Assembly (NCBI RefSeq): GCF_000003195.3
Contig: NC_012870.2
Location: 9,850,501-9,914,500 of the forward strand
DNA from: Sorghum bicolor
Lineage: Eukaryota; Streptophyta; Magnoliopsida; Poales; Poaceae
Length of the DNA stretch: 64,000 bases
Reading direction: 5' to 3'
Positions 5,213 to 51,371 of this stretch are shown here, in pieces (positions within the stretch are counted from its first letter, which is position 1; the number at the start of each line of letters is the position of its first letter). The notes under the pieces were generated by a model. It was not told where the DNA came from, ran no database searches, and saw only the letters and a program-made list of their open reading frames with translations. Made by a program: the position numbers and the translations under genes.

Positions 5213-5243
5213 TTAGACCTACTGCTTTTAGGGCATGGTTTAA

Positions 5244-10009: not shown

Positions 10010-11640
10010 CATCGTCCTTGAGAACTCGACTTCGGCAGGACCGTAGGAGGAAGCAAAGGTCCCCGACCGTATCGGCGATGAACAGCGTCCAGAACATGGC
10101 CGACGCCGCGACAGTGCTCACTGCTCCTTGGCGCAGCGATGATCTCAGCAGGACCGTTCGGCGACAGTAGTGCTTCGTTCGCTGCTCCTGGGCGCGGGAC
10201 GCTGACACGGCCCACGGGACGGGCACGCCGCGGTGGCTGGCATGCAATGCAGCGGCCGCGAAAACGATCGCGCGCCGATCCGCGTTCCCGTCGCGGGGTC
10301 CCCGGGCCCCTGCGATGATCAACCACAGGCTGTGTCTCCAACCACGCCACGGCAGTTTTCCAACCGCACGGCCGGAGTTCGATACGTGCATGGTAGCGCC
10401 CACACGGCACACGCGCAGGCGCAGGGGTTGGCTTGCAGACGCGACAGCGCAGCGCCGCAGCGGCGGGAGATTCCCCTGAGCCCTGATTTCTGCTGCGATG
10501 CAGCGAGGGCAAAAGGCGAAGCAGCTCGAACTGTGAGTGGGGGGGCGTGGGGCAAGCAGCCGAGCCGAGGACTGAAGCGGCAGTGCAGCGCGTCGGGGCC
10601 AGCCGCCAGCGAGTCCTGCTTCACGAAAGGGATGGTGGCCCGCCCAAGGACGGGATCTGCACCGGTTGCTGCTTCCTTCAAGGACCCAAGATTCGTGCCG
10701 CTGATCAATGATCATCGCAGGCACCACGTGAAACGCAACATGACGGTGGCCACCCAACTTTTGGTCCAATCACTACATTAAGACAGTTCTGTTCAGGGCA
10801 TTTAGGGATAATAACAAGACCTAGGCATCTGGCAATGTAAATGCAACAAGCTCAGATTTAAATAGGCCTGAGCCTAAGAACTTTCGGGCAGCAAGCAACA
10901 AACAGCAACTCAACCAGCCAAACTGCGGAGACCCTAGAGTTAAGGTGAAGTGAAATTTACAGCGTCCCATCGGAAAACTACCTCCCTTTTCTTGATGTGC
11001 ATTCGGCTCCACCTCCACGTCTTTGCAGCCTCCAAGATCACAGGCGCGCGGCATGTTGAGACCGACACCGACCAGTGATGGGCTTTTCATCCAGGCTCGG
11101 CTGCTGGAGGCTGCTAGGGATGCACGCACACCCTGTGGGGACTGGGGACGAGGTGTTCCAGGGTACTGGAGAATGCGGGACCAACGATTTGCCTACATCA
11201 AGGAAACCAAAGAGATCAGTAAACTGGTAGCGAAAATGAGCCGAGTAGTTGAGTCTTGAGGGATTTGGACAGGACAGCTGGACAACTGCATCGTTTACCA
11301 TTTCGAGGGACTAAGCTGCCTACAAGTTCTCTCCATCAAAATTATAGAGGGTAGTACTATTGAAGGGGTAAGCAAACACTACCCATTCACCAAATGACGT
11401 AAACAAAAGTTGCAAACTGTCACTGTGAGAGGAAATATGCTCAACCTTCTATGATCCAGTTAGCTTACCTGTCACAATTCATTTACTGAAATGTGACATT
11501 TAGTTGCAAAGATGCTTACTCAAGAGGCTCACCTAAAACAACCACCTTTCCAAAACCCACAAAAGGGCCTTTCTAGTAGGAAAGATCACAGTTTGTACTT
11601 ACTATTTTTACTAAAAAACAGGTACAAAGAGAAAAAGATA
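10010..11640. other. GC-rich intergenic stretch, no gene recognised
   Basis: 10010-10780 is GC-rich with overlapping ORFs on both strands, none resembling a family I know. 10800-11640 is AT-richer. A short stretch at 11085-11150 faintly resembles the extreme C-terminal exon of EIN2 copy 3, so the relic of EIN2 copy 1 could extend this far. Confidence 0.35.
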
Positions 11641-12623
11641 ATTTCAGAGAGAAGATCACCTCAAGAATGCAAGCATATTTGGTAAGGGAAATCATCCTTT
11701 GACCCTGCCACTAGATCTACCAGTGAAACCTCACTCTTATTCAATTCCGAGCTGGCCACACCAAATGGCTGCTTGGCCTGAAGGGATTTAGCAGGGCTAG
11801 TGTTCATGCTTTGATGTCAGAAGATTGTGTCACAACTCGCAAGAGCCCCCTTATGTGCAAGTTGAGACTAGAACCTGGTTGCCAAGTCCACACATGGTGA
11901 TTTTTCATATGTATCCTACAGAGGAACCACCTGAATTGCAGCACCACTGTCAACATTAATTTGCTTCATGGTGATTTGTCATATGTATCCTACAGAGAAA
12001 CCACCTGATTTGCAGCACCACTATCCACATTAATATGCTTCATTCAACAAAAACATTCTTCTGCTTGCAGCAATCACCACAGATGAAGGTGAAACTGTGG
12101 TGTTTCTTTGAGTAATAAGTAGATAAGTCATCACTTTCACTCCCACAAACAGAGGTGCAATCATCATAGGACCAATGTCAAGTGTGAATTTAAATGATCG
12201 AGATAGGAATACTTGTTCATTGCATTGATCATTTGGTGTTTTACCTCAAGCAGACTTGTCGAATTCCAGAGCATGTGCCCCTACAATGCAGGCATCTGCG
12301 TATACTTCCACAACCATTTCAGTTGACATAAGCTTAGCTGATTTTGTTACCTCACGGCAAGGGTGAGCTTCAGGATTACTAGCCATATGGAGTAGTTGCT
12401 TCTAGAGTAGCGACAGAGCTGCCCATATGATCGAAAGCTGATCTAAGATGAGTGGTATGCCACAAAATTATTTCTGATGGCCTTTCGATGAATCCTGTGG
12501 AACAGGGATGACTAATGACCTCTGAACTTCATGTGCCCCATTTTTCAGAGAAGTTGCTTTGCTGCGATGAGTGGCATCCAACGTTTCTCTCTGTGATGAG
12601 TGCACGGACAACATTCTCTCAGC
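11640..12623 (-). pseudogene. EIN2-like: Decayed C-terminal tail of EIN2 copy 1
   Basis: Downstream of the copy 1 stop codon, the DNA still aligns in patches with the last large exon of copy 3. Directly after the stop comes AERMLSVHSSQRETLD-type text, matching copy 2 (SSVHSQRETLG). At 12036-12160 there is sequence matching the copy 3 block that encodes [18 protein letters not shown]. At 11640-11790 there is sequence matching the block around the QPFEQLFG region. The reading frame is broken repeatedly, and a 74 bp tandem duplication lies at 11895-12042. It cannot encode the EIN2 signalling tail. Confidence 0.75.
11895..12042. repeat. 74 bp tandem duplication in the EIN2 copy 1 relic
   Basis: Two adjacent units, each starting tggtgattt.tcatatgtat and ending near ttgcttca or atgcttca, spaced 74 bp apart with a few mismatches. 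Confidence 0.7.
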
Positions 12624-15600
12624 TTAATTACATGCTGATTTTAATGGAGTAACAGCAAGGAACAGTGCAAAACCAATAGATGCACAAGAGACCAGGACTA
12701 CAACGATATATGGAAGTAGCATAGGGTTTTCAGTGTTCCCTTTCAGGTCATTTGTCCAAGTGCTATCACCAAACAGAACTTCCGCCGCAAAAATGATATT
12801 TGTAAACAGCGTTAGAAGAAATGCTAGGAAGGACAATATTTGAACATATAGAGGTATCCGGTATCTGCCCATCAATAATCTTGATGAGGAAATGCGGAAA
12901 ACAGGTATAACAGACGAAGGAAGGAGCATAGCTTGGACAATTGGGCAGACGATAAGTAACTGATATAACCCTTCAAATCCTGCAACCTTCGCATGGTATA
13001 TAGTAGCAATCATGGCAAAAACCTTAGGTAACAGATGGTGTGCAAAAAGAGGCAGTTTTAGGCCGAAGAGATTCTCTGAAATTACATCACTGCCAATAAT
13101 ACACGTCACTGATACGATGTGGCCTGAAAAGATAAGGATCACCAATAATACAATTGGCGCCACAGGATTTGTAAGTACCTACAAAATACAAATGAAATTC
13201 AGGAAGGAGAGCTTCATCCTTCAATGCAGACTCCAAGCTTAAAGCGATACTATCTTTATTGAATATACGTTGGCCAGATCATGCAAAGGCTAAGTTTTTC
13301 AAGAAAGGTGAGGGACAAGAGCATCTCTAGCAGCTTCCCTATAACTCATTCTCTATGTCCCCATTCAGGGAACGAGCCTAAAAGAGAGTTTGTCTCCAGT
13401 GGCTCACATTCCCTATCTCCCAATCTTCTCTGTTTAGTTGATAATTCAAGCGGTTATAATTCAAACGGCCATAGTACATTAAAGTTGTTGGCCCGATTGG
13501 ATCTCAGATTCAGATCTGGGGAGGGAAGCTTAGCCCTTGACCGCTTGGATTGAATGGAAATGCAATGACTTACTTTTTTTACAATGGCACTGCCCCTGCT
13601 TTATAGGCAGAGGGCCAATGGAACAGAGAACACATAGCCAATTGAACAAAAGACTTGACGGATAAGCAGAGAACAGTGACACAAACCTGATTCATTAGCT
13701 GTCTAGCATCTTGGAAGTTAAGGGCCATTGTGTTTTTGGACTCATCAGCTGCTGAACTCAGCAGAATATAATTCACAAGAAAGATACCAGAAAATGCAAA
13801 TAGTATAGAAAAGAAGTGACCATGAAACAGAGAACCAAGCGTATGACCCTGAAATCTTCTCTGAACCTGCACACATGATAATATGATATCTGAATTAACA
13901 CGGATAAGAAGCCGAAGCAGATCAAACAAGCAAAGAATGAATCAAGAACAGCTCAGTACATTCAGTACCCCTATGGCGAATCAGTGATCAAGAACAACCA
14001 CTACACTCAGTAGTCAGTACCATAACATAAAACATCGTTCGTTCAAAAATAGCATAAAACATCACTTGCACCGTGGAAGACACATTCAAGATTGATAAGA
14101 CAAACTTTTAACGGAAGGCATGCTTGACAAAGCTAAGTGCACCAACTCATCACTTGCACCGTGAAAGACACATTCAGGATTGATAAGACAAACTTTTAAC
14201 AAAGGTATGATTGACAAAGCTAAGCGCACCAACTGTAGCTTCATATGTGTCATCTGACAAATGCAACTAATCACGAGAATGGGATGTTGGAAATTTACCT
14301 GAACAACTGATGAATGAGTATAAAAGTTGTGTACTATTATATTTGTGCCAAGTAGTGCCATCAGTGAGTAAGCACTTTCACCACTCAACTTGGGGAACAT
14401 TACGTTCGTATCGACAGGGGTCTTGGGATGGCTGACTAATAAACCAAGCACAAAACAAACTAGTGTAAAGCCAGATACGTAGGCATTAAACATTCCGGCC
14501 TTCCTCATGCTCTGCAATCAGCACAAATATAGGAACCAGAATAAGTTATAAAAAGTCTTAGAGCAGGTCATCCATTTATATACAGTACTTTCTTCTTTGG
14601 GAACTTATAAATTTACCAGAAGGGAGAGTGTATATGGTAGCAGATTAACTACAACACTTGTTAAACATACAACTGTGATAGGATCATTGCTTTCAAATAC
14701 AAGGTTGAACCCAACTACGATGCCTGCAATCTGAAAAATGTCATATGTCAAGTGCTTTTTCCTTGAAAATGTAAGTGTTTCAAATATACGAGCTACTTAA
14801 ATGCTCTGTTAATTTGTAATGGTACAAGCAAATGTATATCACGAGCACATAAAAATCCAAGATAAAGCATCATCAGAAAATGATTTTTTTTTCTGAAGTA
14901 TTTGTAGACATACCATGGTCAGTTCAGAAGTTAACAAGGACAGTCCTGCTTGAAGACCAAGAATAACACATATTTTCTGATTATACTCCTGGTGGCAAAT
15001 CTATTTGTTCATGTACAAATATAACAAGAAAAAAAGTCAAGATCTGCTGAAGACTCTGCTGAAAATAGATGAAGAAAATGTACAATAAAAGGGATATTTC
15101 TAGACAGAGTTTAAACCTCCAGCCATTAAGTTTTTGTTGTCACATGTGGATATCCGATGTTTTATTTCGGAAGATGGTGGCATTTTTTTTTTCAATAGAA
15201 GTATGTCAGAATAGCTACAACACTAGCATTTTTTTTTTCAGATACCTCCCACAAACACACACACAAAAAAAACACAAACAGTACAGGTACACACAGCAAT
15301 TTATGGTAGGTCCGCCATATCCTAATGAATCATCATTCTTATCGGTGAGACCTCCACGCTGTGGTTCTGGTGAGATTTCTACAGTTTGTAATTGCAAGAG
15401 AGGACTGAATAAATTCTTACCTCGGCAAGGTTCTTCCCGGTGACAATGCCGATACAACTCGAGAGGTACTGACACAGAATAGCTGATAAATTAAAAAGCA
15501 GCACGAGCAGGACAAGATCATAGCCAAACCGAGACCCAGCTTCCACTGCCACCAACCATTTCCCGAAGTCAAGATACCCCATTGAGACCACGAGTGCTGG

Positions 15601-15672
15601 TCCAAGGGTTCGGAAAGAATTATGCGGAGCATCTCCAGCAGCCAGGGACTCTATGGATCGCACACCGTCCAT
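12624..15672 (-). CDS. EIN2-like: EIN2-like protein, Nramp domain only (copy 1)
   Basis: Six coding exons, all with GT-AG junctions: 15421-15672, 14914-15000, 14617-14730, 14299-14511, 13687-13866 and 12624-13178. They encode 466 aa, starting MDGVRSIESL. The product covers the complete Nramp-like membrane domain of EIN2, the ER ethylene-signal transducer, with the family text [36 protein letters not shown] and FGDSTWTN. It ends [10 protein letters not shown] and then TAA, where copy 3 reads [12 protein letters not shown], so a single GAA-to-TAA-type change explains the stop. The start at 15672 is used because a 5' UTR intron acceptor lies 20 nt upstream, as in copy 3; the in-frame ATG at 15723 would then be intronic. 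It may be a truncated functional gene or a young pseudogene; exon structure and frame are intact. Confidence 0.8.
14061..14236. repeat. 88 bp tandem duplication in an EIN2 copy 1 intron
   Basis: Two units, each beginning atcacttgcaccgtg and running through gacaaagctaag, 88 bp apart, in the intron between exons 4 and 5. Confidence 0.7.
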
Positions 15673-16250: not shown

Positions 16251-16272
16251 GCCTTTTATCGTTTTTCTTTAA

Positions 16273-16497
16273 CTTCTTGTTTAGTTTCAAAATTTTTTAG
16301 GAAATCATTTGTATTTAATAAATATTATTCAATCATAGATTAACTAGGCTTAAAAGATTTGTTTCGTCAATTCTGACCAAACTGTACAATTAGTTTTTAT
16401 TTTCGTCTATATTTAACCCTCCATACATGCGTCTAAAGATTCGATGCGACGAAGAATCTAAAAAATTTTGCAATTTTTTTTGAAACTAAACAAGACC
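16273..16497. mobile_element. Tourist-like MITE
   Basis: Left end cttgtttagtttc, right end aactaaacaagacc, with the usual core (gattcgatgcgacg, tagtttttattttcgtct). It abuts the next element directly. Confidence 0.65.
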
Positions 16498-16500
16498 TTA

Positions 16501-16737
16501 TTTAGATCTGATTTTTTTTTTAGAATTTTGACATTGTAGCACTTCCATTTTTATTTGACAAATATTGTCCAATCATAAAGTAACTAAATCTAAAAGATTC
16601 ATCTTGTGATTTATAGACAAACCGTGTAATTAGTTTTTGTTTTTATCTATATTTAATAATTCATGCATGTGCCGCAAGATTCAATGTGACGAGAAATCTT
16701 GAAATTTTTTTGGTTTTTGGGTGAACAAAACAAGGCC
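16501..16737. mobile_element. Tourist-like MITE
   Basis: Left end (acc)ttatttagatctga, right end gtgaacaaaacaaggcc. The core contains attgtccaatcata and gtgtaattagtttttg. It is followed by TTA, where the next element starts. Confidence 0.65.
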
Positions 16738-16740
16738 TTA

Positions 16741-17112
16741 GAGCATCTCCAGCAGACTACCTAAATAGACTATCTATCCCCAATTTGAGTAGTGGAGGGC
16801 TAAAAATCTACTCCAGCAAACTACCTATTCCACCCAACATATTTGTTGGCTACCTAAATCCCCCTCTCCACTACCCATTCCTGTTGGGTCAAGGACACTA
16901 CCCAAATCTTCTCTCCCACCCACACGTCTCTCTCTCCCATTAATGCTCTGATTGTGGGACCTAGAAGTCATCCTCTGCTAAGACAAAAATGGGTAGCTAG
17001 TTTTAGGTAGTACTGCTGGAGTTGAGAGCAAAATGTAGATAGTATTAAAATGAGTGGCTACTCAAATAAACATTTAGGTAGTCTAATTTAGGTAGCACTG
17101 CTGGAGATGCTC
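16741..17112. mobile_element. MITE of the GAGCATCTCCAGCAG family
   Basis: Ends gagcatctccagcagacta and gcactgctggagatgctc are inverted repeats about 370 bp apart. TTA duplications lie at 16738-16740 and 17113-17115. The interior has matching inverted 'acctaaata' text. Confidence 0.75.
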
Positions 17113-17634
17113 TTATTGATTTTTTTGAGAGAACTGGACGGGCAGAAAAGTCCCTACTGGAATTGTATTAAAGCAAAACAAGGGTACAAAGTCTTAAAAC
17201 AAAGAAAACAAAAGGGAAGGGAGGCCAACTTATTATTAATTCATATTTAGATTCTTGAGAAAAAAGATCGTAGAAATGGATCTATGTGAAGCATCTTTGC
17301 ATACGAGAGCTAATAATTAGCCTATGTTTTTTATACCAATTAGAACACCTACGTGGGCTAATTTGAATTAATAAGAGCTAATGTGGCTAGAGTTCATTAG
17401 CCCTGATTATATAGCCTATAATTAGCTCATCTTTAAAACATTTTCACAAGACGGGCTAACTTTTAGCGGGATCCTAGGCTTGCGAAAAGATTTTAGATTT
17501 TGACACTGAAGCATTTTCGTTTGTATTTACTCCGTAACAATTATTGTCCAACTATAGATTAACTAGGCTCAAAAGATTCGTCTCGTAAACTATAGACAAA
17601 TTGTGCAATTAGTTTTTGTTTTCGTCTATATTTA

Positions 17635-17840
17635 GGCCAGTCTCAATGCATAGTTTCATGACACAGTTACCAAGACTATAAACTAGGTAAGCGAGCCACA
17701 TGAGTTTCATGGAGATGAAACACCTCTCTCATCTGATGAAACTTCTTCATTTAATGACCCTGACAAGTCAGCAATTTTGCTTATGTGACATCCTATTTAA
17801 TGTGCATGACACTCTTATAAAACATGCATTGAGACCGACC
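17635..17840. mobile_element. MITE of the GGCCAGTCTCAATG family, copy 3, nested
   Basis: Ends ggccagtctcaatgcat and atgcattgagaccgacc. TTA duplications lie at 17632-17634 and 17841-17843, splitting the host motif atatttaatg/gctttatgc. Confidence 0.78.
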
Positions 17841-17917
17841 TTAGTGCTTTATGCATGTGCCACAAGATTTAATGTGATGAGGAATCTTGAAAAGTTTTTG
17901 AATTCTGAGGTGACTAA

Positions 17918-18384
17918 GGCCTTGTTTAGTTCCGAAAAGTGAAAAGTTTTCGGTACTGTAGCACTTTCGTTTGTTTGTGACAAATATTATCCAATCATAG
18001 ACTAACTAGGATTAAAAGATTCGTCTCGTAATTTACAGCTAAACTGTGTAATTAGTTTTTGTTTTCGTCTATATTTAATGTATCATGCATGTGCCACAAG
18101 ATTCGATGTGACAAGGAATCTTGAAAACTTTTTGGTTTTCAGGGTGAACTTTAGTTCCCAAAAATTTTTGCAAAACTTTTCAGATTCCCCGTCACATCGA
18201 ATATTTAAACACATGCATGAAGTATTAAATATAGACGAAAATAAAAACTAATTGCACAGTTTGATCGGAATTGACGAGATAAATCTTTTAAGTCTAGTTA
18301 GTCTATAATTAGATAATATTTGTCAAATACAAACGAAAGTGCTACCGTGCCGATTTTCTAAAATTTTTTAAACTAAACAAGGCC
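17918..18384. mobile_element. Two fused Tourist-like MITEs inserted as one block
   Basis: Begins ggccttgtttag and ends aactaaacaaggcc, with TAA at 17915-17917 and 18385-18387. Inside, the right end of one unit (gggtgaact) runs straight into the left end of an oppositely oriented one (ttagttcccaaa), with both inner termini partly lost. Confidence 0.65.
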
Positions 18385-18770
18385 TAAACAAGTCCCAAGT
18401 GAAAATAAAATGGATGGGCGACGGACGCACTGACGCCCGTGCGCACTCCGATGGCTGCCACGTGTAGCCCGACGGCATCGCATGGCGACAACCAACCATG
18501 GTGCCGTATGACAAACAAAGGTGGGCCCCGCCGCGTTTGGAGTGCACAAGAGCATCAGTGTGTTCGTCGTCCATGCAATTTAATCCAAGCAGACATGTTT
18601 ACGCAAAAGGCAAGACCCAAGACTCCATAAAGTCAAGATATGGTACATCTAGATGGGAGGTTTAAATGAATTGTCTCACATTTTGTAGATGACGGTCTCT
18701 TGATCCTCCAATACAAAGATGATATTATTTTTCTTCATGGAACATGATCTGCTCTAAGCTAAAGATCTTA

Positions 18771-19002
18771 GGCCTTGTTTAGTTTCCAAAAATTTTCAAG
18801 ATTTCTCGTCACATCAAATTTTGCGGCACATACATGAAGCATTAAATATAAATAAAAAAGATAACTAATTACATAGTTTATCTGTAATTTGCGAGATGAA
18901 TCTTTTGATTCTAGTTAGTCTATAATTGAATAATAATTGCCAAATAAAGTCGAAAGTGCTACAGTAGCAAAATCTAAAAATTTTCACGAACTAAACCAGA
19001 CC
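18771..19002. mobile_element. Tourist-like MITE
   Basis: Ends ggccttgtttagtttcc and gaactaaaccagacc. TTA duplications lie on both sides (18768-18770 and 19003-19005). 232 bp. Confidence 0.8.
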
Positions 19003-19311
19003 TTAATACACTAGTGTTATGTACCTTTCAGCAGCTCTCAGGATTGAAAATTAATTTTTAAAAGAGCGAGCTCTTTTGTTGTGGCAAGGCTAATGACTGT
19101 GACAAGTGTGTGCGTGATTTTTTGGTCCCAATACCGGGGGCTTACCATTTAAATACCGCTGTATTCCTATGCATCATCAAAAACTCTAACAAAGATTGGA
19201 CGTTGAGGAGAGATTTTAAAAAGAAAAGCTTTTTTCCATTAGAGGTTGACAAATTTTCCTTAATTCAGCCTTAAGATTCAAAACAAGTGCCTATTAAGAA
19301 GGAAATACTTG

Positions 19312-19552
19312 GGCCTTAGTTCCCAGAAAATTTTGCAAAACTTTTCACATTCCCTATCACATCGAATCTTGCAACACATGCATGAAGCATTAAGTATAGA
19401 TAAAAAGAATAACTAATTACACAGTTTGTCTATAATTTGCGAGATGAATCTTTTGAGCCTATTTAGTTCTATGATGGGACAATATTTGTCACATACAAAC
19501 GAAAGTGCTACAGTGGCCATTTTCCAAAAAAAATTTGGAACTAAACAAGGCC
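19312..19552. mobile_element. Tourist-like MITE
   Basis: Ends ggccttagttccc and ggaactaaacaaggcc, 241 bp, with the core cattaagtatagataaaa and gaatcttttgagcct. Confidence 0.75.
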
Positions 19553-19579
19553 TTGGCCTATAATACAATAACTCAAGTC

Positions 19580-20100
19580 CGTAAATGGCCAGGTGATTCG
19601 TGTTTTTGGTAGGGGCTAATGAAGGTCAAGGATGGTTTCTTAGGCCGTCCTTATTTCCGAGTTCAAGACAAATTACAAGTTCGATTTTGAAGGAACAATT
19701 GATTAGGAAATAAACAATTAAGGGGTGTCTATCCATCTCTCTGTAGGATTATGAGGAAAAAGTACGATACGGTGGCCAAAGCACTTAATGTGTTTTTAGA
19801 AGAGGTTCGGTGGATGTTAGTTTGATAATGTGGTAGACTTTAAAGTTGTGCCGGTCAACCTTACAAGTGAGAAACATCCATAGGAGTGGGAAGAGTCCGC
19901 TATGGAAAGTCCGCTATGAAAATTAAGAGTGCCTTTGAAAGTTAAAATTGTTCTTTGGTATCTCCAAAAATGAGTCACTTTTACAGAAAGTAATCTAGTA
20001 AAAAGGAATTGGCAGTGGAGTGTCAAATGTTGTTTTTAGATCCTTGAAGACAATTTAACATTTTTTATTTGATTGTTACTTTGCTAGGTTCATATAGAAC
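19580..20100 (+). pseudogene. LINE reverse-transcriptase C-terminal (zf-RVT) fossil
   Basis: Plus-strand text translates in broken frames to motifs of plant non-LTR retroelements. YPSLCRIMRKKYDTVAKAL is followed about 50 codons later by KLRVPLKVKIVLWYLQK, a stop, and NLVKRNWQ..VKCCF. The last part is the zinc-binding region found after the reverse transcriptase domain. Several stops and frame changes are present, so it is dead. Confidence 0.7.
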
Positions 20101-21027: not shown

Positions 21028-21834
21028 TAAATCTCCAATCAATGTGATATTGATGCATTGACAAGATCAAAATGGCGAACAAGGACATGTTTTCTACAAT
21101 TTTGAACCACCTCATCTAAATTAGGTGGGGCTATGCATAGGGATGATGTTGCACTTGTCATCGGCGATCTAGGTGTAGGAAAAAATTACATGTCACAATC
21201 CACATCAGACTGTGAGTGAAGGTATTTGGATGTGAAGCTAAAATCGTGCTGCAGAGTATTTGAAGAAGCAATGACATTCATGTGACCTGTGCTAAAATTG
21301 TTGTACATAAATCTCACGCTAATCTATTTTTTTATTTACATCAATCAATATAAATTGTAAAGTGTGAAGAGAGTACAAGCTGCTAATTAATGAATACATT
21401 CTGACATATTTTGTCATTTGTATTTTTCTGATATCAATAGAAAACTTGTTTTCACTTGTATTTTTCCATTTGCACACTTTATTAATGGACAAACGTAAGT
21501 ATTGTCTCTATACCGTTAGCACAGGTAATATACTGATTTCAAGAAGTCAATCAAACTTAAATTTAATAAAATCTTAATAAAATCTATATAAAAGGTAAAT
21601 CTTTATGAGACAATCATACAAATAAACATCATTAGATTAATACCATCATATATTTTATAGAAAATCTTTTTAGAGGTACACATGTTGATTATTTTTTATA
21701 TAGATCTAGTTGAATTTGAGATTGATTAATCAACTCCTAGAGGTGTTAGGTGTGCATTTATTTTAGGACTGAGTGGGTATTGAACACTTTGTCTGCTGCA
21801 CATAGAGGAGTTTTTTTTTTTTTTACAACTACCC

Positions 21835-22035
21835 AGAGGAGGTTAGTGTTGGTGTTCGTACTTGTCTCTGACTGGATGGAGATAATTTCCCTCTGAATAT
21901 TGCGTTGCGAAAGCTCGCTAAGTGTACGTTGAGCTGAGCCTGATGGCCTGGTTGTGACTCCACAAATTGTGATTTTTCAGACGCCAGCTTACTAAGGTAT
22001 GACATATACATATTTGCAGCAGGACCAACTAGCTT
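21835..22035 (-). pseudogene. EIN2-like: Detached fragment of an EIN2 C-terminal exon (from copy 2)
   Basis: The minus-strand reading MYMSYLSKLASEKSQFVESQ, followed by QLNVHLASFRN, aligns with copy 3 [16 protein letters not shown] and its following HNVQREML text. The nucleotide match extends from the 'tttgcagcaggacc' block to 'ggtgttcgtact'. In copy 3 this part lies about 0.8 kb downstream of the DEFWG block. Here it is about 2.6 kb from the copy 2 DEFWG remnant, with MITEs and other repeats in between. Confidence 0.7.
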
Positions 22036-22082
22036 AAATAGACATTTATTTCGCTCGTTCCCCTTTCCTCGGTTATCATTTA

Positions 22083-22428
22083 GGGCCTGTTTAGATTGTA
22101 TATGAAAAATTTTTAGATGTCACATCGGATATGTCGGAAGGATGTCGGGAGGGGTTTTTAAAAACTAATAAAAAAACAAATTACATAGCTCATCAGGAAA
22201 CTGCAAGACAAATCTATTAACTATAATTAATCTGTCATTAGCACATGTGGGTTACTGTAGCACTTAAGGCTAATCATGGACTAACTAGGCTTAAAAGATT
22301 TGTCTCGCGATTTTCAACCAAACTGTGTAATTAGTTTATTTTTTTATCTACATTTAATGTTCCATGCATGTGTCCAAAGATTCGATGGGATTGATGAAAT
22401 TTTTTTGGGTGGGGAACTAAACAGGGCC
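22083..22428. mobile_element. GGGCCTGTTTAGATTG MITE (larger family)
   Basis: 346 bp, ends gggcctgtttagattg and aactaaacagggcc. TTA duplications lie at 22080-22082 and 22429-22431. Core gtcacatcggatatgtcgg. Confidence 0.82.
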
Positions 22429-22709
22429 TTATATCATTTCACTGAACTCGCCCTTGCCAAGTTCAGTCCAACAGAAAAGTCGAACCTTTTAGTATTAGCT
22501 TCTTGGGTAAGCTCACTTTTTTTTTCTGAGAGCACGACTTGGTGTGTATTTCATTAAGAAAAAATCCGATTGTCAAAAAAATGACTAAGATGACACGATG
22601 GGAGAATCCAAAGCGCAGTACACGAACCACAAAGATAGTAGTTTAGAACAACAAATACGAAAGAAAGAAAACACGTAAGGGAGAGAGCCCTTCGCCACAA
22701 CCTAACCAA

Positions 22710-22952: not shown

Positions 22953-23012
22953 CAACTAGACCTGCAAAGAAAAACAAAAAGCAAAAGACTGTCAGCAGGG
23001 AGATGAAGCCGT

Positions 23013-23964: not shown

Positions 23965-24629
23965 TAGCTGTGACAGACCAGGCTAGATCGGCTGATGCTA
24001 TGATCATTGGTCAGCCATGCATGCCCCTAGATAGCAACCGTGTAGCACTCCCGCCATTTAGAAAAATAAAAAGCAGTTTTGTAGCAGTGCTCCCACCGCT
24101 GTTGCTCGGATCCATTACTTCATTACCATTTACTTTGCTTCTGTTGTTATCGTCGTTATAAGTCATGTTGATTCTTCTAAAAGTACTAATTGCATTCTGT
24201 ATACCGGAACTTAATTATAAGTACAAACACTATTTTTTTTACTATACTTATGTTGATTCAATTAGTAAATTGGCTTCTGTATGTATACATGCGCAGAAGC
24301 ATGCTTTTGATTTTTTTTGACAAATTAACCCTTGTTTTATCTTATTTCTGGCTCCGCCACGGAGGCACGAACAGCACCCAAACTTTTAGGGCCGCCGTGG
24401 GCTGCTGCCACCGCACGCCGGAGGGCAGCGCCGGTGGCCTAGCCGCCGCGGGCCGCCGCCGTGGCAGATGGAGGAGAGCCGGTGGGGGGCCTAGGGCGGC
24501 GGCGTGGTTGCTTCCCGAGTCGCTGAAGGGGGCGCTCGGAGAGACGGCGTGTGGGGAAGAACATTTTTCGTGTAGGTAAGCTCACCTGAACCGTGATAAT
24601 ACTCCGTAAAAAATATGCCCCCCCCCCCA

Positions 24630-25748
24630 GAACTCATCAAGAATTACTGCTAACTACCTCCTTGCTGCACGCCCTTTTCTTTAATTAAGGGAAAGCATCC
24701 GGCCTCCAACATTCAACAGTGAATGTGTATAGCCACACAGTACAGGAACAACACTTAGGCCAAACCGAAATCCGGTTACACAATCCAAAGCAGAACAGCT
24801 CCTCTAAGAGCTGATACTAACAAATATAACCAAGGTTTCAATACTCTTTAGAAAGGCTACCACTGGCATTACTATGACCACTTTTCTTATCCATGCTACA
24901 TGCAAGAAATGGTGGATCATGAGAAGTCAAAGGCGTATCTCCTCCAGCAGACTTCTCACTTTCCTCATCTGTGTAAACATTTGCTTAACATATTTTTTTT
25001 GAAAGGGCAGCAAGATCATTGCTGCAAAATTTACAAAATTTGTTAGAAGAAAAGGAATTGGCCCATTTTTGGAAAAAAGGCCCCAAAAACTGAACGACTG
25101 CACGATTCCAAAAGCGAAACTGTCCTGATCTCCAACTAAAAAGAACTCATACAGCTGACAAAACCAACACACAACTATGAAAACTGATGGTAACTAAAAA
25201 ATCACCACTAACTACAACCACCAACACCTCTTGCGAAACCACCACAGATCGATCCAAACAAGAAAGTTGACAACTATAAAATAACTGAGAAGACACCATC
25301 ATCTCTAAGAGCACCACTAGCATCACTGGCCAAACCATGAAATACTGAGAACCATGAAGGCAATTGGCAAAGCCTAAAAAGAAGGCCGACACACCATCGG
25401 AAAGGCATCAACAAGTTGAATGTCAAGTTGGTCAAGGGCTTGTCTCAGAGATTCTTCCACCTATGTCACCCTCATCTGAGTTGTCTTCACCTTCTTGTTT
25501 AACCACCATTTCATTTGAGGGCTTCATCTCGAAACATTCTGAAACGCTATGTTCTACTACGATGATAGTACAGATCTCTGGAACTGCTTGCGTCCACTCA
25601 ACACCAACTGATTTTGGCACCACATTGGTTATAGGTGGTGATGATTCAGCTTCAGGATTAACCAATGTATCCACAGTCAAAAGCTAGTTTCTGAGGAACC
25701 TCCAATGAATCCCTCAGAACAGCACCAACAGAAGACCTCTTAATTTCT
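24630..25748 (-). pseudogene. EIN2-like: Decayed C-terminal tail of EIN2 copy 2
   Basis: Sequence after the copy 2 stop still matches the copy 3 tail. At 25432-25680 an out-of-frame stretch reads VNPEAESSPPITN... VGVEWTQAVPEICT, matching copy 3 [13 protein letters not shown]... [14 protein letters not shown]. At 24635-24672 the minus strand reads RAARR*LAVILDEFWG against [16 protein letters not shown] in copy 3, so CAG has become TAG. A C homopolymer at about 24617-24629 marks where homology breaks off. Frameshifts and stops rule out a full EIN2 product. Confidence 0.75.
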
Positions 25749-28700
25749 TCATGTGTGTTCATGAACTGATTCCGTATGACCTTCCGATGAACCCATAAGA
25801 AAAGCTCCAACAGAACAGCTTTCAAATTCTTCATCCTCATTTTTTTCAAGACAAGTTGCTTCTCTATGAGTAGTGCCCAATGTTTCTCTTTGTGAGTGCA
25901 CGGACGACAAATGAGTCTGAGCTTCATTACTTGCTGATTTTAGTGGAGTAACAGCAAGTAACAGTGTAAATCCAATTGAGGCACATGAAGCTAGGACTAT
26001 AACAGAATATGGAAGTATGGCAGGGCTTCCAGTATCTCCTTTCAGGTTGTTTGTCCAAGTGCTATCACCAAACAGAATCTCTGCTGTGAAAATTATATTT
26101 GTGAACACCGCAAGAAGGAATGCAAGGAAGGCAAAAATTTCAACACATAAAGCTATCCTGTATCTTCCCATCAATAATCTTGACGAAGAAACACGTAAAA
26201 TGGGTATAATCGATGAAGGAAGAAGCATAGCCTGGATAACTGGGCACATAATAAGCAACTGATATATCCCTTCAGAACCAGCAACCTTCGCACAGTAGAT
26301 AGTAAGAATCATGGCCAAACCCTTATGTAGCAGATGATGTGCCGAAAGAGGCAGTTTAACACCAAAGAAGTTCTCTGAAATTACATCACCACTAACAATG
26401 CATGTCAATGAGATGATATGGCTTGAAAAGAGAAGGATCACTAATAGCACAATTGGTGCTGCAGGATTTGTGAATATCTGCAGAAGGCAAGAATCCACAG
26501 AAGTCAGGAAAGGGGTTCCATGCAGAATCCAAACTAAAAATACTTATTAATATGCACCAACCAGGAACTTAAGTTGTTTAGGAGTGGGAAGTAATAGGCT
26601 TGTAAATCAATGTAAGCACATATTTTTATTCTCCTTAACACCTATGGATGAACTAAAAAGCATTACAGTTATCATTTTCTTAAAATTGTGCCAGCCAGGT
26701 ATCTAGGTCCCAAACCTGACCTACTGAAACAATGCCATATACAAGTTCAATGCACCAAGCAGTTCATCAAAAAGCTTAACATGTTGAGGGAAGGTAGACA
26801 TCATATTTATAATACAAAAATTTCAGGCAATTGCAAATCCAAACAAGCAAGGCATAGGAGAAATGCAACATGCTGAACTCGTGATACTGTTTCTTGGCAA
26901 TTATTAAAAAAGCAACAGATGACACGATTTGACAAATAAACAGAAACTGGAGATACAAACCTGGTGCATTTGCTCCATAGCATCTTGAAAGTTCATGACC
27001 AATGTGTCACTGGATTCATCTGCTGCTGAGCTCAGGAGAATATAATTCACAAGGAAAATCCCAGTAAATATAAATAATATAGAGAAAAGGTGGTCGTGAA
27101 ACAGGGAACCAAGGGTATGGACTGAAGATCTTCTCTGAACCTGCATATATGATATCTGAATCAGTATACAACAAACCAAGAAAATCAAATAAGCAGAGAA
27201 CAGAAAAGAATGATTTGCGTAGTGAAATGGAAGAGAAAGTACAAAAGTACATTCCAACCAGCTTCTAGATTAGAGCGGAAAACCCCAGGGGTCACTGGAA
27301 CCCCTGTGCCGGTCCGCATTCCAAGCCTGGTACCTCTCCTTAACGATATGCCAGGAGGTGTCTCCCCCCAAGATCTATTTTTTTAAGTGAGTACATTCCA
27401 ACCACTTGACATGTATCTTTTTTTTTGGGAAACGATCGGCAGGAGATCTGCTGAACTTGTATTGTATAGAAGATAAGAAGGACCACTTGACATGTACCAT
27501 GAATTGCCATAACTAAAAACACTAACAACCTTAACACCATTTATTTTTTGAGTCCATTATATTGCCTTTGCTAATCAACTCTGTGTGCATTCTTGATGAA
27601 GATCAATTCATAAGTAATGGATCATAATAGGCAATACAGAGGACTTGTTTCTTATTATGAGAACTCTGACAACACGAAAGAAAACAAAAGGCTCCACCTA
27701 GTGACATAGGCTGCTTCAGATATGAAAGCAGCACAACCAAACACCAGTAACCTATTCATGAATCATGACAGAGCACTTTCTTACTCTGTTTTCATTACAT
27801 TTGAAAGGCCAACCCAAACATGAAGCAGCACAACCAAAAACTGATACCTAGTCATGAACATGATGTTTTCATTACATTTGGAAGGCAAACACCCCAACAT
27901 GAAGCAGCACAACCAAACACCAATAACCTAGTCATGAATCATGATAAAACACTTGCTTAATCTGTTCTCATTACATTTGAAACCCCCAACAGGTCTCCTT
28001 GCAGCCATATTTATACACAGCCAAGAGCTACAGATATGGTTGTGATAGCTTCCTAATTAATGCAGAGAATTACTACCTCAATCAGCCCTTATTTTCCTTA
28101 ACTACCAGGTAGAATCCTGCTAGCACTAAAGACTGAACCTGGGCACTAATCTGCACCTGTACTCTAATCTGGACACAAAAGATTATTTACTAACAACATT
28201 AAGCACCCCCATGGCCAGTCACATTTTCCCAGACACCACTTTTCATTAAATTCAGCACCCTGAGGCTTATTGTTGTTGGATCACTTTCAACGTGCAAGAC
28301 ACATTCATTAATGATTGATAATAAAACTTAATGGAAGATAAGTTTGGCAAAGCTAAGTTCTTGTACATGCCATCTGAAAACTTCACCTAAGGATTAGCAA
28401 GAGGCTTTAGATGTTAGAACTTACCTGAACAAATGCTGAATGAGTATAAAAGTTGTGTACTATTATATTTGTGCCAAGAAGAGCCATCAATGAGTAAGCG
28501 CTTTCACCACTCAACTTGGGGAACATCACATTCATATTGACTGGGGTATGGGGGTGACTGATTAATAAACCAAGCACAAAACAAAGAAGTGTAAATCCAG
28601 CTATGCAGGCATTAAATATCCCAGCCACCTTCTTATCCTATAATGAGCACGAGTAAGAAACTAGAATTACATAAGGTCTTAGTAGACTTAAGAAGATAAT

Positions 28701-30335
28701 CTTTTTATGATGGGGTTATTTGGGGATTTATAGATTTACCAAACGAGAGAGCGTGTATGGTAGTAGACCAACTACAACACTTGCAAAACATATGGCTGTG
28801 ATAAGATCGTCGTGTTCAAACACAATGTTGAACCCCACTGCCATGCCTGCAATCTAAAGTAGCCAAATGTTAAGTGCTTAGAAGATGAGAACTATGATGT
28901 GCTCTGGTAAGGAGTAACAAGTACTCATAAACTAAATGCATGCATACCATGATCTCATAAACGTCCAGAATGAAGCACAGCAGAGCGAAAAATCTAAAGT
29001 TTGTAGGCGTACCATTGTCAATTCAGAGGTCAACAAGGATAGCCATGCCTGAAGGCCGAGAACAACACATATCACCTGACTGTATTCCTGGCAGCAGATC
29101 TATCAGTCATGTAGAAGAACAGAGAGTAAGGTTAATATCTACCAAAGCCTATGCAGGAAACAGTTTAAGATAATTTAGAATGAAAGGAGCATTTACTAGA
29201 TAGAACTTAACCCCAAGCTATAAAGTTTATTGTTAACAGTTTTCCTTGTTTTTTATCTAATATTAAAAGAAGGAATTTTCTTTCTCCAAATTTTCATCCA
29301 TCACCCAGTCCCCCAGTCCGTCTATCCCTCCACTCCCTGACCATAAGAGTCCTGGTCGGTTTTACTAAGAGTAGGAGTACGTGATGAATTAGAGATAAGG
29401 ATCCTAATTGGTTATTGGTTTACTATCTCGTCCGTGACCTGAACTCACGACCCAGTGTTCATCTGAGTCAAAATAGTGCGCGTCTAGCCACAGTATAGAG
29501 TCCGATTCCAAGACGTATTGGAACAGACAACACAATGCAGAAGCATTTGCTAGTTGAAAGAGAAGTCAGAGATTAAAAATGGTAACTTGATTTCCTGTGA
29601 TCTGTACTGTCATTGTATCTATAAAACTGAGGTTATTGTGAGTAAATACTGTTTTTTTGACAGTCCTCACCAGCAACCCAGGAATAATTTTAACACAAAC
29701 AAGTAATAATACAGGCACACAGCAGAAAGTAACTAATTTAGTTACGTTGTGTTTCAGTCTTTCATTCAGAAAGTGGTACACTTCTTTTTTTAGGCTCTAA
29801 GACCAAGAGCTTTAGATTGCATATAACAGCAGTGATACAAACATTCAGGACTTGAGAATCCATCCTTGTCTACTCGAAGATAATTGCCACCCATACGCGA
29901 GATGCCAAATCATTGTTATGAATTGCATAAGAAACCTTATCATTTTCGAGGTCATGCTAAGCTACTAAGCTCTAGAATATCAGCTAGAATTAGTGACATC
30001 TCTACATGGTGGTTGTAGTGACTGGTAAGAGTTCTGAAAATTGTGTCTGAAGCAAGAACAAGAAAGTGCTCAGTAATTCATACCTTGGCAAGGTTCTTCC
30101 CAGTGACCATGCCGATACGAGTTGACAGATATTGACACAAAATGGCTGAGAAATTGAAGAGCAGCACCAGTAGCACAAGATCATAGCCGAACCGAGATCC
30201 AGCATCCACTGCTACCAACCACTTTCCAAGGTCAATATATGCCATCGAAATCACGAGTGTTGGTCCAAGGGTTCGAAAAAGTTTATGCTGAGCATCCCCA
30301 GCAGCCAGAGATTCTATACTCTGCATACTATTCAT
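25749..30335 (-). CDS. EIN2-like: EIN2-like protein, Nramp domain plus short tail (copy 2)
   Basis: Six coding exons: 30084-30335, 29013-29099, 28740-28853, 28425-28637, 26961-27140 and 25749-26477. All have GT-AG junctions, and the first five match copies 1 and 3 base for base in length (252, 87, 114, 213 and 180). The predicted 524 aa start MNSMQSIESL. They comprise the entire EIN2 Nramp-like membrane domain ([43 protein letters not shown]) and about 58 residues of acidic cytoplasmic tail, ending SVHEHT and then TGA. EIN2 proteins are normally about 1250-1300 aa; the nuclear-signalling C-terminus is missing. Introns have grown by local duplication (27722-27990) and other insertions. It may be an expressed Nramp-only protein or a pseudogene. 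Confidence 0.78.
27722..27990. repeat. Imperfect tandem repeat in an EIN2 copy 2 intron
   Basis: Three copies of a unit built on gcagcacaaccaaacaccag, taacctagtcatgaat and gttttcattacatttg lie head to tail, about 70-115 bp apart, in the intron between exons 4 and 5. Confidence 0.6.
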
Positions 30336-31935: not shown

Positions 31936-34900
31936 CTACCGCCTAGGCGGCGTCTTGTTGCCAAGCCTGCGCTTGTATCGCTTGAGCACAGAGAGCAGGT
32001 TCGCCTTCCCTTTGGGAAAGGCCACATCTCCAGCTGCTGTTCCGCTCCGGCCCTTGCGGCCTGAGACGGCTTGTTCCACGCCCTTGATCACCTCCAGTAT
32101 CATGGCTGCCGTGATGAAGCTGCCGGGGATGGGTTTGCCAACCGAGCCTGCTTTCAGGAGGCATGCACACGCCATTAGGGGTTTCCGGGGATTGGAGAGT
32201 GAAGGATCAATGATTCCCTACATGAAGTAAACAACAGCTCAGAACTAATATTGGGAGAGAATGAACACAAGAGCAGGGTTTTTTGTTCAGCGGCAATGTG
32301 ATCTTTAGATCCTGTAACTGCTGATGTAAACGTTTTCAAGCGTTGAAATGTAATCAGGAAAGGATTACAAAAATCTCTGCTATATGAACGAGGCACTGGC
32401 ATAACCAAAGGCTGAATCTATTCCTTAGGTTTACCCTTTTCTACTGGCATAAGAACAAGATGTGTAGTTCGCTGGGAAACAGGTGTGCAGTCAAAAGGAA
32501 TCACCTGAAGACGGTTGAGAACATATGTATACTTGCCCCAAAGTTCTGGTCTACTTTCCACACGGGACAGGTCTAGCACCCGATGGATACACCAGACACC
32601 AAAACTAACAATCAGTGAAGCCTGCCAAACACAACCATCTCCGCAATTTGGCACTCTGTGCACAGAACTGGTATCTCTGTCATCACTGGTTCCTCCCTGT
32701 GAAACTCTCTCGGTTTCAGAGACTTTATCAATTAGATTTTCATCACAACCGCCATTCTGACGAAACAGCCACTCCGATCCTTCCAGCTTCAAGAGCTTCA
32801 TGATGCAAAATCTAAGAGACTTAAGAAGTTCTGCCTCAAACTGTGTGTAAGAGAAATCATCCTTCATGGCACTACATGCTCCCTGGCCAGTGTTCACCTC
32901 ACTCCTATTCACCTCTGAACTTAACACACCAAATAATTGTTCAAATGGCTGTTGGGACCAAAGGAATTTGGTTTTGGTGTTTGTACCCGAATGTGTAGAG
33001 AGCATCTCTCTCTGAACATTATGTTGTGACAACTCAGTAAGTGGAGATGATGGTCTGACTGCTAAGTCCACATACCGTGATTTTTCAGATGCCAAACTAG
33101 TCAGGTATGCTAGATTTGCAGCAGGACCCAAACTTGCTTCATTCAACAAAGCATCTCTGCTCGCAGCAATTACCGCAGATATGTTAGGTGAACTGTGGTA
33201 CTTCTTTGAGTTAGCAGATGAGCCAACACTATCACTCCCACCAATGGAGATAGGATCATAATAGGATCTTTCCACTGCCATTGTACTTGAGCGGTTCAAT
33301 GTCGGGCTTTGCAAAGAGCTATCTCCAAATGAACCAAGGAGATTATGCGTATGAGCATTCATTGCAGAGCCAGTATAGGTGGGAATAGCAGATTCAGAAG
33401 ATCTAGGAGGTTGCCATGGGTCCAATGGAGTGCTAGAGTATGGATTTCGACTTGCATTTATCCCTTTCAAATAGTTTGCTAGCTGATACCCATGAATGGT
33501 AGCCGGTTGATAAAACTGGTTACTGGAGTAAGATGGAGTATGAAAATTTGAAAATAATTTAGCATTTTGCTCAAAGAAGGTTCTGCCTGAACTTGGAATA
33601 TCTCTATTTGGTAAATGCATGCTTTGAGACCATGTTGGTGGACCCATGGTACCCACCTGCAGACAGATACCTGTGTCTTGATTAGTGATATCTTTATCAT
33701 GAGAATCCCATGTGTTCAATACAGTAGCTGACCCTTGCATTACATCTCTCATCATTGAGTTACTGGAAGCTTCAATTGATAGGTTATCTTTCCTCACAGC
33801 AGAACCAGCTGCTCTCAAGTCCAGTCCAATCAAATAGTTGAAGCTTTTATTGTTGGCCTCTTGTGTAAGTTTACCACGATAATCAAAAAGTTGCCCCCAG
33901 AACTCATCAAGAATTGCTGCTAACTGTCTCCTTGCTGCACGTCCCAAACCAGACTGTTTTGAGATGAAACCACTGACATTACCAGCATCAGTATCATCTC
34001 CCCTGCTCAACATAAGAGATGGTGGGCCACCAGAAGGGAAAGAAGGTACCTTACCTCCATAGGACTTGTCAAATTCCAAATCATGTGACACCTCAGAATC
34101 CTTCTGTGCGCAAACATCTGGTTCCACTGGAACAATCTTCTCAGTCGCGCTCTTCACTTTGATGTTCTCTGCAGTACTTTGTTCTACTATGGTGTCAGTA
34201 CAAACTATTGACATTGGCTCTGTCCAGTCAACCTCAACAAATTTTGGCTCATCACGGAATGCAGGCGGTGAGAGGTGAGCTTCAGGATCCACTGTCCTAT
34301 GAGATGTTGGTTCTTGAGCATCATGATCAGACTCTGTAGCGGTATCAGAACACTCGGTATACTCCAAAGCTGATTTCTGATGACCTTCCAACGAATCCCT
34401 CGGAGCAACAGCAATAGACGACCACTGAACTTCTTCAAGTGGAACACTTTCAAGAGAAGTCTCTTCTCTATAGTGAGCAATGTTCAATGCTTCACTATGT
34501 GAGCACACAGACAAATTCTCGTTTTCAGCTTCATTACTTGCTGACTTTAGTGGAGTAACAGCAAGGAATAGCGTAAAAGCAATACTTGCAAAAGAAGTTA
34601 GGACTATGACAATATATGGAAGTAAAACAGGGCCGGATCCGGTGTTTCCTTTGAGGTTGTTTGTCCAGGTGCTATCACCAAACAGGATTTCCGCCACAAA
34701 AATGATATTTGCAAACAGCATAAGAAGAAATGCAAGAGTGGCAAGTATTTCAACATATAAAGATATTTTGTAGCAGCCCATGATTAATCTTGATGAGGAA
34801 ATACGGATAAGGGGGATAACAGTGGAAGGAAGGAACATAGCCTGGATAACTGGACAGATAATAAGTAACTGATATATCCCTTCAAAACCAGCGACCTTTC

Positions 34901-37712
34901 CACAGTAGATACAAGGAATGATGGCGAAACCCTTAAGTAGGAGATGATGTGCAGAATCTGGCAGTTTAACACCAAAAGTGTTCTTTAAAATCACATCACT
35001 ACCGATAATAGATGTCAACGAGATGATGTGGCTTGAGAAGATTAGGATCACTAACAACAAAACTGGTGCCACAGGACTCTCAAACATCTGCAGAAGACAA
35101 CAATACACAAACTTAGTAAGGAGCTTCAATGAAGAATCCATACTCAAAGTGATAGTGCTTTTCTCAGTTTCCATGCTGTTACAGGCTGTGTAAGGGTGAC
35201 AACATGAACAAGATAGGAATAAGGAAACATGTTATGTTCTCTGAGTTCGATTCCTTCTAGAACAGCAATAGGCAATAGCACAAAGGGCTAACAGATATTG
35301 GACGAACCTGGTTCATTAACTCAATACCATCTTGATAGTTAACAAGTGTTATATTACTGGATTCATCTGCTGCTGAGCTCAATAGAACATAGTTCACAAG
35401 AAAAACCCCAGTAAATACGAATAATACAGAAAACAGGTGATCATGAAACAGGGAACCAAGGGTAGGAGCTAGAGATCTTCTTTGCACCTGCACATATGAT
35501 ATCTGAATTAACATACAATCAAATAAGTAGAGAACAAATCAACGAAAATGGCCTGGTTTATCAAAGTGGAGTGCAGAGTGCAAAAGTATTAACACAATGA
35601 CTTGATGTGTTTTATAGTATTTTAAGGGAAGATTTTGAATGTTGTGTTAGTGGGCATGCATTTTGAATATGATATAACTAAATTGCATTCTAGTGAGATT
35701 TCTAATGTCTCATTAAATATAACTTCCTCGGTTCAGTTTTTGGCCTATCATGACGTTACTATGAATCAGAAGATTTTTTTTCTGTTTTAGTCACTGTGAA
35801 TCAGGTTATCAAGTTATAAACATGCTGCTAATAAATAGTATCATACACCACGAAGATCAATAAATTGCTGTAGACTAATGATGAATGTGATGCATTATAT
35901 GAGAAATACTGCGGATGGATACACATAAGTGAAAATAAAATGTACACATAAGTTGCTTTCGACATGAAACAAACACAACTGAAGCAATAATCCAGTCATC
36001 CTTTGGTAATAAGCATTATATTACTGTGTATTTAAGAAAAGTTACTCCTCCAGTGGTATTATTTGATTGCGAAAACATGAAACATTCTATACACTAAGAA
36101 GATGTGTCCGGCAATGAAAAACGCACATTAACTTAGTGCACCAGATGTAACTCCAAAGAGTCTCTGACAATTGTGATAAAGACTAATAATGAGCAATGGA
36201 CAGCTAGATTACCTGAACAACCGATGAATGAACATAAAAACCGTATGTTATTACATTTGCGCCAAGAAGTGCCATCAGCGAGTAAGCACTCTCACCACTC
36301 AACTTGGGGAACATCACATTCACATTGACAGGGACCTTTGGTTGACTGACTAATAAACCAAGCACAAAGCAAAGAAGTGTAAAGCCTGCTATGCAGGCAT
36401 TGAATGTTCCAGCCATCCTCCTGCCCTAGAATGAGCACAACCACGAAACCAGAAATATATAAGATATTAAAGAAGGTCGTCCTTTTTTGTGCAGCTCTTT
36501 GGGTTAATAAATTACCAGACGGGAGATAACATGTGGCAGCAGATAGACTACAACACTTGAAAAACATAGGCCTGTTATAATACCACCATATTCAAAAACA
36601 AGGTTGAAACCAACTGTTATGCCTGAAACCTGACAATACCAAATGTTAAATGTTTAAAAGATGGGGACCAGTTACATGCGCTAGCAGTGGCTAAAAGTAG
36701 TCTATCCATAACATGAACACGAATGTTCCCTAATGAAGCATGGACAAAAGATGAATCTGTCCAAGTGTGCAGACATACCATTGTTAGTTCTGCAATAATC
36801 AAGGACAGCCCTGCCTGAAGACTAAGAACAACATTTATTGTCTCACTGTACTCCTGGCAGCAAATCTACCGTCCATGTAAAAGTATGGCAAGTAATAGGT
36901 TAAGAAAATCAGAGGAATATGCTGAAAACATGAAGAAAACACATATCACAGAGGATCATTTTTCTCATAGACTTAAACATCAAACTAAAAGTCTGTTGAT
37001 AGATGTGAATATCTAAAGGGGCATACTTATCTTTTTTTTCAAGGGCTAACTATGAGATATTTAAATACAATCCCCCCCCCCCCCCCACACACACACAAGG
37101 GGAAAATCACAACAGCAGGAAATTATGCTTTGACTCTTAGATCGCAACATGTTTCTTTTTAGTCCAATAGTATTAAATGACAATATAGCATTACTACAAC
37201 AGCATTGAGACATGTGAAGACAAAGCCCATCACGTGGTTAATCAAATACTCCTGCTAACTTCTGCCTACATGAAAAATGCTTGCTTGGCAAACAGGTGAA
37301 CCATGAAATTAACATCCCAACTTACATATGAAACATGGAAATTCTCAAATTTTAATTTATCTCTTGCATCATGAGTTAGAACCAATAACATCTCTTCACA
37401 GTAGCTGTGACGAGAGTTCTACAAAATACTAAAGCAAGCAAGCACTCACTATACCCATACCTCTTTAAGATTCTTCCCAGTGACCATACCAATACAAATT
37501 GATTGATACTGGAATAGAATGGCTGAGAAATTGAAAAGCAGCACCAGCAACACTTGATCATACCCAAATCGAGATCCAGCGTCCATAGTCGCCAACCACT
37601 TTCCAAGGTCAATATACCCCATTGAAATCAGGAGTGTTGGCCCAAGGGTACGGAACAGATTAGGCCGACCATCCCCAGCGGCCAGAGATTCTATACTTCG
37701 CACACTGATCAT
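31936..37712 (-). CDS. EIN2: EIN2, ethylene-signalling transducer (copy 3, full length)
   Basis: Seven coding exons: 37461-37712, 36779-36865, 36516-36629, 36213-36425, 35308-35487, 32505-35087 and 31936-32217. They give 1236 aa. Residues 1 to about 460 form the Nramp-like multi-spanning ER membrane domain ([37 protein letters not shown]). The long cytoplasmic tail carries the conserved [16 protein letters not shown] block (about residues 665-682), [28 protein letters not shown] and [12 protein letters not shown]. The last exon holds [20 protein letters not shown] and the basic nuclear-localisation motif LKRYKRRL. In the known pathway CTR1 phosphorylates EIN2; when ethylene is sensed the tail is cleaved, enters the nucleus and activates EIN3/EIL. 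Length and motif order match rice EIN2, so this is the only copy here able to signal in the usual way. Confidence 0.93.
37070..37100. repeat. Poly-C/(CA)n tract in EIN2 copy 3 intron 1
   Basis: A run of about 15 C followed by acacacacac, a length-variable microsatellite. Confidence 0.7.
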
Positions 37713-51275: not shown

Positions 51276-51371
51276 CCAAAAGAGTAGGAACTAGAACCTG
51301 CTTTTTCAGAAGTAGCTGTTTTTGGATACTACAGTTATGAAAGCACATGAATCCTGCTTTTTTGTGCTTTC

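Follow-up and report, generated by a model that had tools for sequence, protein, structure and literature searches.

Do EIN2 genes that have lost their signalling tail go on as working genes, or are they debris? The question is raised by a stretch of 64,000 nucleotides of Sorghum bicolor DNA (bases 9850501-9914500 of contig C1, hereafter the window, in whose positions all features are given; chromosome 1 was assigned via the gene name SORBI_3001G125400), which contains three genes of the type of the ethylene signalling gene EIN2. All three encode the Nramp-like membrane part (the head), and one of them also encodes the cytosolic C-terminal domain (the tail) with its nuclear localisation signal (NLS). 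We consider the two head-only paralogues to be old, retained and probably working genes. The tandem EIN2 family of the PACMAD grasses is split between a full-length line, that of the third sorghum copy, and short or dead-tail lines with an intact, constrained Nramp head.

The three genes are arranged head to tail, all on the minus strand; a sequence-only reading of this DNA had described three same-orientation EIN2-type copies, one with a signalling tail, to which we add the strand. Copy 3 (31936..37712; exons 37712-37461, 36865-36779, 36629-36516, 36425-36213, 35487-35308, 35087-32505 and 32217-31936) is a complete EIN2-type gene with 7 exons and 1236 aa, in which the C-terminal domain with the NLS (motif LKRYKRRL near the end) is encoded by an extended exon 6 together with exon 7. 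Copy 2 (25749..30335; exons 30335-30084, 29099-29013, 28853-28740, 28637-28425, 27140-26961 and 26477-25749) encodes 524 aa and ends in TGA, and copy 1 (12624..15672; exons 15672-15421, 15000-14914, 14730-14617, 14511-14299, 13866-13687 and 13178-12624) encodes 466 aa and ends in TAA; both have 6 exons and no cytosolic C-terminal domain with a nuclear localisation motif. As the earlier reading had it, the six head (Nramp) exons of copies 1 and 2 are all present and in frame, with zero stops and zero frameshifts in the head. In each gene, the five introns that interrupt the head are GT-AG introns of phase 0, and the lengths of exons 1-5 do not differ between the copies (252, 87, 114, 213 and 180). 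With the head end set at the motif TPLKS (our own cut), the stop follows after 3 codons in copy 1 and after 61 codons in copy 2, so the description "end just after the Nramp domain" fits copy 1 but not copy 2. A neutral simulation without indels gave about 7 stops expected per head over the estimated branch, and stop-free heads in 2 of 2000 runs for each of copies 1 and 2. A public protein for copy 3, P0083 ("isoform X2"), equals our modelled protein except that the first four residues encoded by exon 2 are missing; the gap (36865-36854) would fit the use of an alternative acceptor located 12 bases further on.

Both head-only genes are followed downstream by remains of the lost tails, whose order and strand are preserved. 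Tail-like similarity spans 12659-11682 for copy 1, and 25958-24624 plus 22511-21833 for copy 2. The decayed tail of copy 1 (11682..12623, minus strand) consists of pieces 12623-12234, 12171-12036 and 11906-11682 and contains several in-frame stops. That of copy 2 has a nearer part (24624..25748, minus strand; pieces 25748-25501 and 24674-24624, with two frameshifts) and a farther part (21833..22511, minus strand; pieces 22511-22458 and 22035-21833, collinear with the copy 3 tail); some 2 kb of other DNA lie between the two. The conserved last third of the tail and the NLS exon were not found downstream of copy 1 or copy 2. With the C-terminal 205 aa of copy 3 as a query against the genome, we found, among the best ten candidates, copy 3 itself, a gene on chromosome 3 and one divergent place on contig C4, and none of these ten was a spare tail copy for copies 1 and 2. 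The C4 locus (L014, C4:57126000-57135999) carries at about 4642-6500, on the minus strand, a 582-aa frame that is EIN2-tail-like (39% identity over 109 aa). We had considered it as a tail-only partner gene, but a weak similarity to Nramp immediately upstream (E 0.007) suggests that it is a divergent EIN2-like gene instead.

A search of the 709-Mb sorghum genome for the Nramp family gave 44 matches. These include the tandem array (C1:9.86-9.89 Mb) and a full EIN2 gene of 1272 aa at C3:1.29 Mb (modelled from L009, C3:1284000-1293999); the remaining matches were taken for ordinary NRAMP transporters. Protein searches, each scoring about 8000 candidates, returned 82 proteins with copy 2 (288-917 aa), 187 with copy 3 (120 listed) and 98 with an alignment of short forms. 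For a careful tree, 85 listed proteins were chosen by hand and joined with the four sorghum genes (89 in all); 78 rows entered, and 11 were dropped as having too little head sequence or as duplicates or faulty models. In this tree the chromosome-3 gene groups in the canonical EIN2 clade, and the heads of copies 1 and 2 fall within EIN2B. All members of the copy-1 clade (16 rows, Aristida and Stipagrostis among them) and of the copy-2 clade (9 rows, Panicoideae) are short, the longest having 657 aa.

A quick tree, which avoids hand choice, contains 188 rows (184 of the 219 returned protein ids and the four sorghum genes). P0071-P0082 and P0197-P0219 were excluded; all of these but P0218 (267 aa, with 74% identity over 14% of the query) were taken for bacterial NRAMPs. 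Its copy-1/2 clade has 39 rows, 38 of which are at most 657 aa (the exception being P0098, taken up below), and its copy-3 clade 17 rows, 16 of which are at least 882 aa (the exception being P0039, 516 aa); this length split gives a Fisher p of 7e-12, to be read with the non-independence of kin rows and the limited length range that each search admits. Single-exon open reading frames (ORFs) over exon 6 on other contigs agree with the split: five from the copy-1/2 clade (P0058, P0191, P0192, P0195 and P0196) end 47-110 codons past the head, three of them starting within the intron that precedes exon 6, and in the copy-3 clade five comparable ORFs reach 882-918 aa. Against the Pfam Nramp model, copy 2 of the cultivar Tx430 scores 214 bits and the copy-1 orthologue P0012 scores 204 bits. 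Short EIN2 genes with constrained heads are widespread in grasses, which is more striking than the sorghum array itself; our literature searches, covering titles and the openings of abstracts, found no prior description of head-only EIN2 genes in grasses.

Was the tail lost once or several times? A single truncation for the short forms of PACMAD grasses and Pooideae was rejected: forcing the 25 copy-1/2 rows and 12 short Pooid rows together costs 197.7 log units (approximately unbiased test, p-AU 0.0002). The Pooid short forms, known only from gene models, are separately derived, and in one of them (P0016, 740 aa) a portion of the tail survives. A constraint that unites copies 1 and 2 but leaves P0098 outside costs 0.8 log units (p-AU 0.084), so that by these trees a single truncation for the two copies is neither rejected nor demonstrated.

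Evidence of the transcript type comes from two sequences that are intron-free through the six-exon head, P0003 (526 aa, longest contig 2722 bp) and P0012 (470 aa, longest contig 2981 bp), whose source (lgn) we infer to be RNA assemblies. P0003 matches the maize protein P0005 (448 of 456 aligned residues) and P0012 matches maize P0024 (442/442), which points to spliced transcripts in maize. Exact exon skipping is seen among the relatives: P0025 and P0026 equal the P0012 type minus exactly exon 3, the public model of sorghum copy 2 (P0002) also lacks exactly exon 3 (28853-28740), and maize P0005 is without exon 4. Since exons 1-5 are all multiples of three in length, such skipping preserves the frame; skipping of exon 3 would be predicted to delete one membrane helix. 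A processed retrocopy as the source of the intron-free ORFs would fit the lack of introns but not the exact exon skipping.

We then estimated the ratio of nonsynonymous to synonymous substitution rates (dN/dS, omega) with a codon model of the four sorghum genes (463 head codons, 60 bootstraps). The head branch of copy 1 has an omega of 0.35 (bootstraps 0.25-0.53) and that of copy 2 of 0.24 (0.17-0.39), and omega=1 is rejected for both (twice the log-likelihood difference, 2dlnL, 25.5 and 31.6, respectively). Both heads are under purifying selection, in line with the dN/dS well below 1 that the earlier reading had asked for. The head branch of chromosome-3 EIN2 has an omega of 0.19. As a control, the leftover tail of copy 2 (60 codons) looks neutral against copy 3 (omega 0.97), and the stretch of copy 3 that matches it gives 0.32 against chromosome-3 EIN2; the copy 3 tail has an omega of 0.33 against that gene. 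Identity to the chromosome-3 EIN2 head is 62.6% for copy 1 and 65.0% for copy 2.

The head branch of copy 3 has an omega of 0.66 (bootstraps 0.41-1.18), for which omega=1 is not rejected (2dlnL 1.5). A relaxed or faster copy 3 head could be read from its long end branch (0.14) and from its own omega being better than a common one by 2dlnL 11.3. We do not claim relaxation because the high omega accompanies a low dS estimate, and the rate tests show no acceleration: with chromosome-3 EIN2 as the outgroup, unique amino-acid changes number 48/46 for copy 3 versus copy 2 and 43/52 for copy 3 versus copy 1. Only one of 23 relative-rate tests (17 head, 6 tail) exceeds a chi2 of 3.84, with copy 1 being faster than copy 3 (Brachypodium outgroup, 58 vs 37 changes, chi2 4.64).

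Several observations weigh against retention for function. One member of the copy-1/2 clade, Aristida 007810 (P0098), is full length (1236 aa); in the careful tree it branches next to the copy-1 clade, a weakly supported position (94/66). Many of the relatives are gene models, some of them fragments or faulty (P0010, P0052), and the support of the transcript type consists of maize matches, not sorghum ones. Against chromosome-3 EIN2 the leftover tail of copy 2 gives an omega of 0.23, but with a saturated dS of 2.56. Branch omegas average the times before and after tail loss. The strongest alternative is that copies 1 and 2 are decaying pseudogenes which lost the tail first and whose heads are still unhit, with the low omega reflecting selection before the loss. 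Stop positions do differ between species, the leftover tails are decaying, and a branch omega cannot split early from late constraint. Short forms are nevertheless found in sorghum, maize and Miscanthus, in Panicum, Setaria and Urochloa, and in Aristida and Stipagrostis, and sorghum and maize heads are well conserved (427/461 and 412/457 identical residues), the first figure being for copy 2 against its maize-type orthologue P0003, for which the leftover tail is 44/61 identical. Moreover, copy-1 types of Setaria, Urochloa and Panicum share a common end (..KDA), which shows that the stop is old and the head intact. On this evidence we regard decay as unlikely; head constraint, taxonomic spread and the intron-free maize matches make retention for function the likelier explanation. 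Where the sequence-only reading had named missing spliced transcripts together with neutral dN/dS as the outcome against function, we found omegas below 1 and intron-free ORFs that match maize orthologues.

A second alternative is that the heads serve a job of their own outside ethylene signalling, e.g. transport of a metal or other solute. AlphaFold2 predicts the full Nramp fold for Tx430 copy 2 (33-row alignment; mean predicted local distance difference test score, pLDDT, 76; residues 483-524 below 50), and its top PDB matches are Nramp/MntH transporters. The histidine of transmembrane helix 6 (TM6) is kept in every readable copy-1/2 clade row of the alignment, the mis-spliced P0010 excepted; at this position sorghum copy 3 has Y (exon 4, 36425-36213) and four Panicum-type copy-3 rows have N. 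The metal-site motif in TM1 of NRAMP transporters is DPGN. Copy 2 has DLGK and copy 1 DFGK here, as in EIN2, and sequence places both heads within EIN2B; a role outside ethylene signalling has only a small chance. That the tails exist and were mis-assembled or mis-modelled is very improbable: many of the short proteins in the databases come from gene prediction, and some of these are plainly faulty, but the stops are read directly in the window DNA, Tx430 copy 2 (P0001) has the same length and the same end (457/463 head residues identical), and among the relatives short ends recur in ORFs of other contigs, both single-exon and intron-free.

What would head-only EIN2 proteins, if retained as working genes, do? 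By analogy with EIN2, they would be made as membrane proteins of the endoplasmic reticulum (ER) without a nuclear effector. The sequence-only reading had proposed a decoy able to dimerise with EIN2 or to bind receptors, and the constrained heads, the persisting grass relatives and the intron-free maize matches are consistent with a decoy in general. Its receptor-binding part is doubtful. According to passages of PMC6566107 and PMC12290401, receptor binding maps to the soluble C-terminus of EIN2 with the NLS, the part that copies 1 and 2 lack; in the latter source, NLS removal is stated, citing earlier work, to strongly reduce the affinity for ETR1, and the last 80 tail residues are said to matter in a moss abscisic acid assay. 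A head-only protein should therefore not compete there, and receptor binding by copies 1 and 2 via the known C-terminal/NLS interface is unlikely. For EIN2 dimers, the literature passages we examined contain no evidence. MHZ3 is reported, in passages of PMC11252128, to bind the OsEIN2 Nramp-like domain and to block its degradation. Competition for head partners such as this stabiliser is tentatively the most plausible decoy mechanism, although this step would extend by analogy from MHZ3 binding in rice, which is a further point on the other side of the balance. Head-only proteins might occupy such partners, leaving less signalling-competent EIN2 and so tuning ethylene signalling, which we offer as a possible route only. 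A still more doubtful scenario is that grasses lost the tail repeatedly, at least once in the PACMAD line (for the copy-1 type before the separation of Aristida/Stipagrostis from Panicoideae) and again in Pooideae, and that the tailless proteins were kept as ethylene attenuators via partners such as MHZ3. It has long been asked why EIN2 should have a head that resembles a transporter. Head-only genes kept by selection in sorghum, maize and millets would give the head a job of its own; they would be ready-made test material for head function, and could help explain differences in ethylene response between cereals and Arabidopsis.

As to the genomic setting, we found no further EIN2-like pieces at E<=1e-3 in the window or 10 kb on each side, and zero Rfam matches at gathering thresholds in 9000-40000. 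Diverged repeats of 100-240 bp, clustered and in both orientations, lie between copies 1 and 2 (16286-23965) and are probably small transposable elements. A lipoxygenase-type gene pair lies near the array on the minus strand (46377-55338; Pfam scored only frame 46377-47468 of the first), and the start of an importin-5-like gene is found at 231-2087, also on the minus strand. Presumably lipoxygenase genes lie near OsEIN2.2 in rice too, as they do near the sorghum array.

Compared with known systems, copies 1 and 2 share with EIN2 (Arabidopsis At5g03280, rice OsEIN2.1/MHZ7 and the sorghum gene at L009) the Nramp-like head and the exon plan, and differ in having no cytosolic tail and NLS, hence no nuclear effector. 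The canonical gene is on C3 in sorghum and, according to passages of PMC9072831, on chromosome 3 in maize; gene names in Setaria and Panicum (2G040900 and 2KG063100) imply chromosome 2, and a move of the gene between chromosomes is possible. The view of EIN2 as a single-copy gene fails for grasses: rice is said to carry four EIN2 genes (PMC5869255). NRAMP metal transporters resemble the head-only proteins in predicted fold and length and differ from them in the TM1 motif, which is EIN2-altered in copies 1 and 2, while overall sequence places the copies in EIN2. Truncated receptor or signalling paralogues can act as dominant negatives; here, too, a putative binding part is retained and the output part is gone. 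A further known system is OsEIN2.2 (Os03g49400, which we infer to be rice rows P0133 and P0146) with its grass orthologues, which share the EIN2B clade and belong to the copy-3 line. They are full length, and copies 1 and 2 are their tailless sister lines within the PACMAD grasses.

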